Below, piece by piece: positions 9,644-12,600 of a DNA stretch of 35,871 nt. This stretch comes from an uncultured Erysipelotrichaceae bacterium (GTDB lineage: Bacteria; Bacillota_I; Bacilli_A; RF39; UBA660). Numbering within the stretch: position 1 is the stretch's first letter; each line of letters starts with the position of its first letter. A program made the position numbers and the translations under genes. The stretch covers positions 1-35,871 of the forward strand of contig CADBKG010000016.1 of NCBI GenBank assembly GCA_902795215.1, written 5' to 3'. Under the pieces are notes generated by a model. That model ran no database searches, had not been told where the DNA came from, and saw nothing but the letters and a program-made list of their open reading frames with translations.

Positions 9644-9670
9644 TGCTATACTTGATATGAAGATATGGTG
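9644..9670 (+). promoter_or_regulatory. Promoter and SD of the phase-variable DGR target
   Basis: TGCTATACT (9644-9652) is an extended -10 and GGTG at 9667-9670 is a ribosome site six bases before the ATG at 9677. The same arrangement (TGTTATAAT, then ATATGGTGAT and ATGTTGACAAGAAAT) recurs at 35799-35845 before the second gene. That conservation supports ATG 9677 as the ancestral start. Confidence 0.7.
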
Positions 9671-9689
9671 ATAAGAATGTTGACAAGAA

Positions 9690-12600
9690 ATGAAAAAAAT
9701 TTTAAACTTAGACAGACAGACAGACAGACAGACAGACAGACAGACAGACAGACAGACAGTGGCTTTTTTAGTGGTGTTAAGTTTAGTTTTAATTAATTCT
9801 CATGGAAAAAATTTAATATCAGATTTAAAGTCTAAAAACTTATTAGCAGGGGCAGGAATATACACCAAAGAAGTTCCATCTATTGAAATAAAATCAGATG
9901 ACTTTGATAATAATAAAGCAGGTTCTTACAAAGTGACTAAATCTGCGAAGTGGACTAGTGATAAAAAAGCTAGGATAACATTTAATATTGATTCGGTTCT
10001 AAAAACTGGAGATAATAAAAAAGATGTTCTTTTAGTTATGGATATATCTGGTTCAATGAGTGGAAGCAAATTAGATAAAGCTAAAAGTGATGCTAAAGAG
10101 CTTGCTAACACACTTCTATCAGATAACGAAAATAGGATGGGGGTTATTACATTTGAATCAAAAGGTGTAATAGGTAAGCCACTAACTAACAACAAAGATG
10201 AATTAACTAGCTATATAGATTCTCTTGCTACAATGGGTGCAACTAATTATAATGATGCACTTTTAAAAGTAGGAGAAATCCTAGCACAATATAGTAAATC
10301 AAATAAAGATTTTATAGTTTTATTTGTAACAGATGGGTATCCTTGTGAAGATACTCCAAATGAAATAGCAACATATGAAATACTAAAAGAAAAATACCCA
10401 TACCTTGTTATTAATGGTATTCAGTATGAAATGGGTGCTGAAATAACAAATGAAATAAAAAATATAAGTGATGCACAGTGGAGTGCTGATCAAGCAACTT
10501 TAGGAAATGCATTACTTGAAGCTGCAGTGGCACCTGAAACTTATGAAGAATTTATACTAACCGATTATATAGATGAAGATTATTTTAAGATAGAATCTAT
10601 TGATGATATTAAAGCATCAAGAGGAAAGGCAACTTTAGATGGAAATAAAGTAACTTGGGATTTTGGAGATAATTCCTTTATAACAGGTTCTAGTGCAACT
10701 ATGACAATAGATTTAACTCTAAAAGGAAACTTTGAAGATGCATCAGCATATTTTCCAACAAACGAAAAAGAAGAAATAGCTGCAAATCTAGATAAAGAAG
10801 ATTTAAGCAAAACTAGCAAAGATACACCTGTTTTAAAAAGTGCATATAATGTTATTTATAACAGTAATACACCAGAAGGATGTACTATAACTGATTTACC
10901 AAACGAGACTCATTATGTTTTTGATACAGTTACAAAAACAAATGAAAAACCATCTTGTAACGGTTATCAATTTAAAGGATGGGAAATCACAAATGAAAAT
11001 GTTGAAATAATAAGCGATGATTCATTTGTAATGCCTGAAGAAGATGTTACCTTAAAAGCAACATGGACTAGACAAAATATTGATAAAACTATGGATGGAA
11101 CAGTTAATGGTAAAGCAACACTTTATAAAACTGTTGAAAGAGATGCAAAAAAAGATATGCATGCTAAAAAATATACTGGCAACGGTTCAGATAATTATGA
11201 AAATAATGTTTACTACTATACATATGAAGCACAAAATAATAATGTAAAGTTTGCTAATTTCTGCTGGAAAATGGTTAGAACAACTGATACTGGTGGAGTA
11301 AAACTACTTTATAATGGAACGCCAAATGCAAGTGGACAATGCGATGGTGAAAGCGGAGTAGATTATCAAGGACAAACTGTAAAAGCTTCAGTAGCGGTTT
11401 CTAAATATAACGAAAACTATAACTCACCAGCATACGTGGGATATATGTACAATACGGTTTATACTTATAACAATGCTAATATTTTGGATGGGGCAAATAT
11501 TCTTTCATATATCACAACATATAATAGCGCAACTATAGGAGATACAATAACTTATAACAATAATACTTACACAATTACTAATAGTGATGGCTCTACCCCT
11601 TCTTATCAAAGACTAAACAATTTATCTAAAGATGATTTGCTAGAAAAATATGTTTGTTTTAGTAGTTCAGCATCATGTTCAAATCCTTCTTATATAATTG
11701 GAAATATGTGGAGTAGTTACTATGGTCTAAATCTTAGTAATGGAAAACTAAAAGATGATTATAAAATAGTTTTAGGAAAGTCATATGAAGGCAACGAACT
11801 TAAAGAAACAGAAGAAATAAGTGCAACAGATTGGTTTAATTCACATTATGATGAAACAAATAGTAATTCAAAATATGATTTATATACTGGATATTATGTT
11901 TGTACAAACAGTGATGGAACAAATGAATATGATAAATCAACATGTACAAATGTTTCTAAGGTAACTAGTGATTCTTATAACTCTATAAGTTATACCAACA
12001 AATCCTTTGCGAACTCAGTTACTTGGAACGGAACATCTTACACATTAAATAATTCAACTATTGGTCCAGATAAATCACATCATTATTATTGTGAAGATGG
12101 TAGTAGCACTTGTCAAAATGTTAGATATATGTACTATAATAACTACTATATTGAATTAACAAATGGTAAAAAAATAGAGGATGCAATAAATGAGATGCTT
12201 TATAATGACGATGTAAATACTAATGATAGTACATTAAAGACAGCAACTGATACATGGTATGCCAACAATATGACAGAATATACTCAGTATTTAGAAGATA
12301 CAGTATATTGCAATGATAGAAGTATAGATGACAAAGGTGGATGGGACCCTAATCTTGGAGAATTAAATTCACAAATGTATTTTGCACCATTACTCAGATA
12401 TGCAGAAATGGAGACAAATAATTTTATAATGAAAGGCGATTTGACTTGTAAAAACCATAATGATTCGTTTACAGTAGGTACTGAAAATGGCAATGGTAAG
12501 TTAACATATCCTGTTGGATTCTTAAATAGTGATGAGACGATACTAGCATATAAGGATTTATTTATAGGAAAAAGTGTAAACGAGCTTGAATCTATCATGA

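Follow-up and report, generated by a model that had tools for sequence, protein, structure and literature searches.

A tetranucleotide tract as a probable frame switch on a surface-protein gene targeted by a diversity-generating retroelement in an uncultured Erysipelotrichaceae bacterium

A perfect AGAC tract at the 5′ end of a gene for a vWA-type surface protein very probably acts as a translational phase-variation switch, with ATG 9677 as the start codon, and a diversity-generating retroelement (DGR) would independently rewrite the variable repeat (VR) in the C-terminal region of the same protein. The gene lies in an uncultured Erysipelotrichaceae bacterium on contig CADBKG010000016.1, which was analyzed as a single stretch of 35,871 nucleotides (the window); all window features given below are on the forward (+) strand. 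That one gene carries both an SSR frame switch and a DGR had been proposed in a first-pass annotation, and the proposal is supported by the tract and its reading frames, tracts in paralogues, a conserved Shine-Dalgarno sequence and start codon, purifying selection, and adenine-specific differences between the VR and its template repeat (TR), all of which are read from the sequence. As assembled, the target gene (9690-12848) encodes 1052 amino acids, comprising a vWA domain (residues 112-227), an InlB-type repeat (residues 386-462) and a C-terminal DUF6273-like region that contains the VR. Elsewhere in the window (746-4250), two adjacent paralogous secreted proteins share their N-terminal halves and differ in their C-terminal halves, one an InlB-type repeat and the other a glycine-rich domain.

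The tract, which is the proposed switch, occupies positions 9710-9759 and consists of 12.5 AGAC units with a 100% match and no indels in Tandem Repeats Finder. It is the only tetranucleotide tract of at least five units in the window, and a chance origin of a perfect 50-nt tetranucleotide tract is discounted. As first annotated, it separates the start codons on its 5′ side from the core of a predicted signal peptide or signal anchor on its 3′ side (VAFLVVLSLVLINS, 9759-9800), which was recognized from the translation and by paralogue comparison. A perfect tandem SSR whose unit is not a multiple of three thus sits at the junction between start codon and gene body. The repeat is free of stops in every frame (RQTD, DRQT or TDRQ), so the tract alters only the frame. 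At the assembled length, ATG 9677 (9677-9679) opens a frame of 39 codons that is closed by a TAA at 9794-9796, in agreement with the 39 residues annotated before. For this codon to share the frame of the gene body, the full units must number 2 mod 3, as with 11 or 14 units; the annotation had these frames right, and only its product size of 1052 residues needs revision, to 1055 amino acids at 11 units and 1059 at 14. A second codon, ATG 9690 (9690-9692), is in frame at 12 or 15 units and opens the 1052-residue ORF at the assembled 12, and at 13 units both codons are closed; here too the frame arithmetic bears out what had been claimed.

Comparison within the protein family points to ATG 9677 as most likely the working start. 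The Shine-Dalgarno sequence GGTGAT (9667-9672) can be read directly 4 nt before this codon and is kept in the SSR paralogues, and the tract-less paralogues L020, L023 and L024 have GGTGA or GGGTGAT before their starts. Tract-less family members on contigs C17, C21, C30 and C31 carry an ATG at the position equivalent to ATG 9677, along with an AT-rich -10-like element and, in most of them, a GGTGA-type Shine-Dalgarno sequence. The conservation of ATG 9677, stated in the first-pass annotation, is therefore upheld, and GGTGAT and ATG 9677, present in members with and without the tract, together predict a translation start upstream of the tract. With ATG 9677 as the working start, the assembled state would be OFF for the window copy and for the copy on C15. 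An unlikely alternative is that ATG 9690 serves as the start in this copy, in which case the gene would be ON at 12 units, the tract would be coding low-complexity RQTD sequence, and slippage would disrupt the gene only now and then. The assembled length places ATG 9690 in frame, and most cells might thus have an open gene; MKKILNL in an A-rich start region would make a plausible N-terminus. However, this codon has no Shine-Dalgarno sequence and is private to the window copy, the matching site in C15, C34 and C16b reading AATAAA or AGTAAA, whereas ATG 9677 has both the Shine-Dalgarno sequence and a counterpart at the start of the tract-less paralogues. Even if ATG 9690 were the true start, the tract would still switch, with ON states at 12 or 15 units; the polarity would change and the mechanism would be the same.

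The probable gene promoter is an extended -10 element (TG-C-TATACT, 9644-9652), which is matched by TGnTATAAT at the same place in C15, C34, C16b and C10, and similar -10 elements also precede the start in tract-less paralogues. Just upstream of this promoter, at 9370-9526, are five copies of a 33-bp unit (GTGGGTGCAAAAAGGTGTAA core) that alternate as a 66-bp unit; the core is found nowhere else in the genome. A further promoter-like pair abuts the tract itself, with TTGACA (9680-9685) and TAAACT (9703-9708) separated by 17 nt and matching consensus at 10 of 12 positions. TAAACT ends one base before the tract, and the predicted transcription start would fall within the repeats. Taken in the window alone, such a match is within chance expectation for a region of this size. 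Among 14 tracts found without requiring the pair, 12 have TTGACA or TTGAAG upstream and 10 also have a fitting -10 element at 17-18 nt, so that the search pattern alone does not account for the TTGACA-17-TAnnnT arrangement. The pair is retained in leader, fusion and HsdS contexts. One idea for its role is that it raises the instability of the repeat.

These elements bear on a transcriptional explanation, which we consider quite improbable, in which TTGACA-17-TAAACT works as a genuine promoter, the number of repeats adjusts initiation or the 5′ leader, and translation starts within the signal core (GTG 9759; ATG in paralogues). The placement of the pair next to 10 of the 14 tracts would fit this scheme, and so would the finding that each of the six tract copies in the genome has an ATG or GTG codon within its hydrophobic core. 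None of these core codons is preceded by a Shine-Dalgarno sequence, however, and the position held by M or V in the tract copies is Ser at the aligned site in tract-less paralogues, so the internal start was set aside as disfavored; it would also drop the charged n-region. The chance level of promoter-like matches in the window likewise counts against a transcriptional role, as does a start codon upstream of the tract in almost all AGAC modules of other genomes (open in 99 of 103 loci, described below). Downstream of the tract, no coding ATG with a Shine-Dalgarno sequence is found in any tract copy.

The 3′ end of the gene appears to be a genuine DGR target, as the earlier description of a hypermutated C-terminus had it. 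In the alignment of the VR (12655-12768) with the TR (12984-13097), 22 of 114 positions differ and all 22 are TR adenines (15 A>G and 7 A>T); 22 of the 33 TR adenines are changed in the VR and 11 are kept, while all 81 non-A positions are identical. Adjacent to the repeats is a reverse transcriptase of the DGR/group II type (13600-15093; RVT_1, E 1.7e-16; phrog_1423, E 3e-68), the only homologue of the DGR kind found in the genome. A small ORF of 118 amino acids (13278-13634) occupies the site expected for the DGR accessory protein Avd, as judged from position and size only, and has no match in Pfam, NCBIfam or PHROGs. DUF6273 is matched weakly by the C-terminal domain (E 0.0064, short of the curated threshold), and structure prediction of the VR domain in seven paralogues reached a pLDDT of 35, a confidence too low for recognizing the C-type-lectin-like fold sought for the VR. 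No second VR matching the window TR was seen among the other paralogues compared, and among these paralogues only the window copy has the AGAC tract and the DGR together. The examined flanks of other AGAC loci contain no DGR reverse transcriptase; a reverse transcriptase match at L068 was rejected as a tract-linked DGR, this locus having been retrieved by protein search and not through a tract. Large families with a DUF6273-like C-terminal domain, lacking AGAC tracts, occur in G006, G007, G003, G005 and G008 of the same genus, with up to 85 matches in G006. Downstream of the DGR in the window (16958-17550) is a MazE/MazF-type toxin-antitoxin pair.

The genome containing the window (1.34 Mb in 37 contigs) has six long AGAC tracts, located on contigs C10, C13, C15 and C34 and twice on C16 (C16a, the window copy, and C16b), and every one of them forms the 5′ end of a vWA paralogue. 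Their lengths are 12.5, 13.5, 15.5, 19.5 and at least 20.5 units, and one tract is cut off by the end of its contig; short reads do not assemble such tracts reliably, as seen in C13, which ends within its tract, and C16b, whose tract holds a gap. In the latter (L013, around 1830-1984) the scaffold gap lies inside the tract with the flank duplicated on either side, the length having been left open by the assembler. Five of the six copies share the promoter, Shine-Dalgarno sequence and start-codon leader, and the sixth runs off its contig end. The leader GTGATA-(nn)-ATG-TTGACA occurs exactly three times in the genome, each time followed by an AGAC tract. In C34 a 5-nt deletion in the leader closes the frame at once, and in C10 the segment between the ATG and the tract is lost; part of the family may therefore be in decay. 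Behind the tract lie ORFs of 1028-1046 codons in C16a, C10, C13 and C16b; those of C15 and C34 continue without a stop as far as the contig end.

Pairwise dN/dS values for the four complete ORFs and the available parts of C15 and C34 range from 0.08 to 0.44. Selection thus keeps the ORFs of C16a and C15 intact even though, in this assembly, the conserved start is not in frame with them. Genes that are never translated would not keep such ORFs, which suggests that the OFF copies are ON in some cells or at some times, and this is the strongest argument in favor of switching obtainable from one genome. It also speaks against the view that the repeat expanded neutrally, or is decaying, in a redundant gene family and was never selected as a switch, a reading to which we give very little credence. 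The degenerate leaders of C34 and C10 would agree with such an expansion, as would the distribution within the genus, where neither AGAC tracts nor the leader were found in any of eight genomes of other species. The purifying selection, the three intact leaders each followed by a tract, and the recurrence in many lineages of AGAC tracts after a Shine-Dalgarno sequence and start codon, before typical contingency genes, all argue for a selected frame switch instead.

This recurrence emerged from a search of 84,980 species genomes with the pattern TTGACA-N15-19-TAnnnT-N0-3-(AGAC)4+, which yielded 102 stretches and one more from viral contigs. The hosts are mostly Lachnospiraceae, Oscillospiraceae, Ruminococcus, Peptoniphilus and other Bacillota, and many of the tracts are 10-30 units long. 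A Shine-Dalgarno match of at least 5 bases accompanies the upstream start codon in 76 of the loci. The Clostridia-type module has the order Shine-Dalgarno sequence (AAAAGGGG), TTGACA, ATG, tract, short spacer, strong intrinsic terminator, and then the Shine-Dalgarno sequence and ATG of the gene, whose product has a hydrophobic N-terminus in 46 of 60 cases. In roughly half of these loci, 26-60 nt separate the end of the terminator from the gene ATG, so that a further promoter would hardly fit between them. A frame test was applied to 50 loci with strong terminators, the downstream half having played no part in their selection. Exactly one frame reaches the terminator in 39 (25.7 under the null) and no frame does so in 4 (null 14.0); in the 38 non-redundant loci the corresponding numbers are 29 versus 19.4 expected (P 0.0015) and 3 versus 10.6. 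When the frame must be open to the terminator loop, the excess in the non-redundant set is weaker (22 versus 18.7, P 0.19). Closed frames mostly end no more than 5 nt past the tract, and the assembled states (13 ON, 28 OFF) show the 1:2 ratio expected of a free-running frame. These patterns suggest that the AGAC modules before Bacillota surface genes are mostly frame-controlled attenuators. For the window, ribosome-mediated attenuation of this kind is extremely unlikely and was rejected. The window shares its Shine-Dalgarno sequence, start and tract unit with the loci that have a terminator between tract and gene, but its ORF continues from the tract into the protein with no intervening terminator, unlike the 50 Clostridia loci in which one separates the leader ORF from the gene.

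Other AGAC tracts are fused to coding sequence like that of the window: some lie in HsdS genes, separating two specificity domains, and others stand at the 5′ end of acyltransferase genes. Type I HsdS and acyltransferase genes are classic contingency genes. L095, L123, L125, L174 (from a contig assigned to viruses) and L176 have their tracts inside type I specificity (HsdS) coding sequence or at its end. The leader ATG-TTGACA-17-TAnnCT-T-AGAC also occurs in another genus of the window's family (G099 and G306), where it precedes SipW-type surface genes that have their own Shine-Dalgarno sequence and ATG. The single long frame after the tract ends there in a conserved YYDDS or YDDS before the stop codon and shows synonymous changes, as would be expected of a translated leader. 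The leaders of L073, L097, L100 and L161 similarly show a conserved YYDDS/T or YDDS before the stop with synonymous changes and are followed by SipW-type genes; no terminator was found in these four post-tract leaders. When 17 module loci were compared with Rfam, the sole matches were a tmRNA and a tRNA; the AGAC leader therefore belongs to no known RNA family. A literature search on AGAC phase variation returned only a review of type III restriction.

The arrangement at the 5′ end of the window gene is most readily compared with the SSR translational contingency loci known from the tetranucleotide tracts of Haemophilus influenzae and others (PMC2651432). In both, a tetranucleotide tract lies near the start of a surface-related gene, and its unit is not a multiple of three, so that slippage would toggle the frame. 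The window differs in belonging to a Gram-positive-type lineage of uncultured Bacillota, in having AGAC before a signal peptide, in involving six members of one vWA family of which one is also a DGR target, and in that its length variation between cells is a prediction. Frame-controlled attenuation by GCAGA repeats in a leader peptide has been shown experimentally for pil1 of Streptococcus gallolyticus (PMC3894217). As in pil1/pil3, where a Shine-Dalgarno sequence, start and repeat form a leader whose frame decides the expression of a surface structure (PMC3894217), the Clostridia AGAC modules appear to fit this mechanism almost point for point. In contrast to pil1/pil3, the leader ORF of the window is fused to the gene with no terminator, the repeat is AGAC and not GCAGA, and AGAC modules are spread over many Bacillota families. 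The retroelement is conventional in its RT/TR/VR order, its adenine-only substitutions, and a VR at the 3′ end of the C-terminal domain of a surface protein, and departs from usual DGRs in that its target also has an SSR frame switch, the fold match is a weak DUF6273, and the Avd candidate is assigned by position and size. Phase-variable type I restriction offers a further likeness, AGAC with TTGACA-17-TAnnnT standing between two HsdS specificity domains in L095, L123 and L125 (the HsdS tract of L176 has no clear -10); the gene class is different, and the HsdS tracts occur in related loci and not in the window.

In the mechanism that we propose, transcription would begin from the extended -10 promoter near 9647, and ribosomes would initiate mainly at ATG 9677. 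Replication slippage would add or remove AGAC units, so that tract length probably differs between cells, and because 4 is not a multiple of 3 each change would shift the frame. Full unit numbers of 2 mod 3 would permit read-through into the signal peptide, the vWA region and the DUF6273-like C-terminus (ON), whereas at any other number translation would end by about codon 40 (OFF, as assembled for ATG 9677). Independently of this switch, the DGR, if active today as we suppose, would rewrite the C-terminal VR from its TR. With at least five more tract-bearing family members, cells would show differing combinations of members, and in the window member the version presumably displayed would additionally be randomized.

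Both SSR switching and DGR hypermutation are well established. Frame switches of this kind have been described before, although in other host groups and gene families; joined to a DGR target, the switch seems to have no precedent in the literature searched: a search pairing diversity-generating retroelements with slipped-strand mispairing, with a coverage that mostly excludes subscription papers and bioRxiv preprints, gave no report of both on one gene. As a tentative and broader possibility, AGAC tracts may constitute a portable Bacillota phase-variation cassette of Shine-Dalgarno sequence, start, promoter-like pair and repeat, one that serves as an attenuator in front of surface genes, is fused into HsdS and acyltransferase genes, and here would form the frame switch of a DGR target; the internal promoter may raise mutability by opening the DNA, and the window gene could be the first with separate controls of when a protein is shown and of which version. 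If such a gene were silent during continued rewriting of its binding site, the organism could sample new versions without exposing them. More broadly, the AGAC module suggests that phase variation of the attenuation type, worked out in a single streptococcus, is common among Clostridia of the gut and rumen, and it provides a simple search pattern for phase-variable surface genes in these bacteria.
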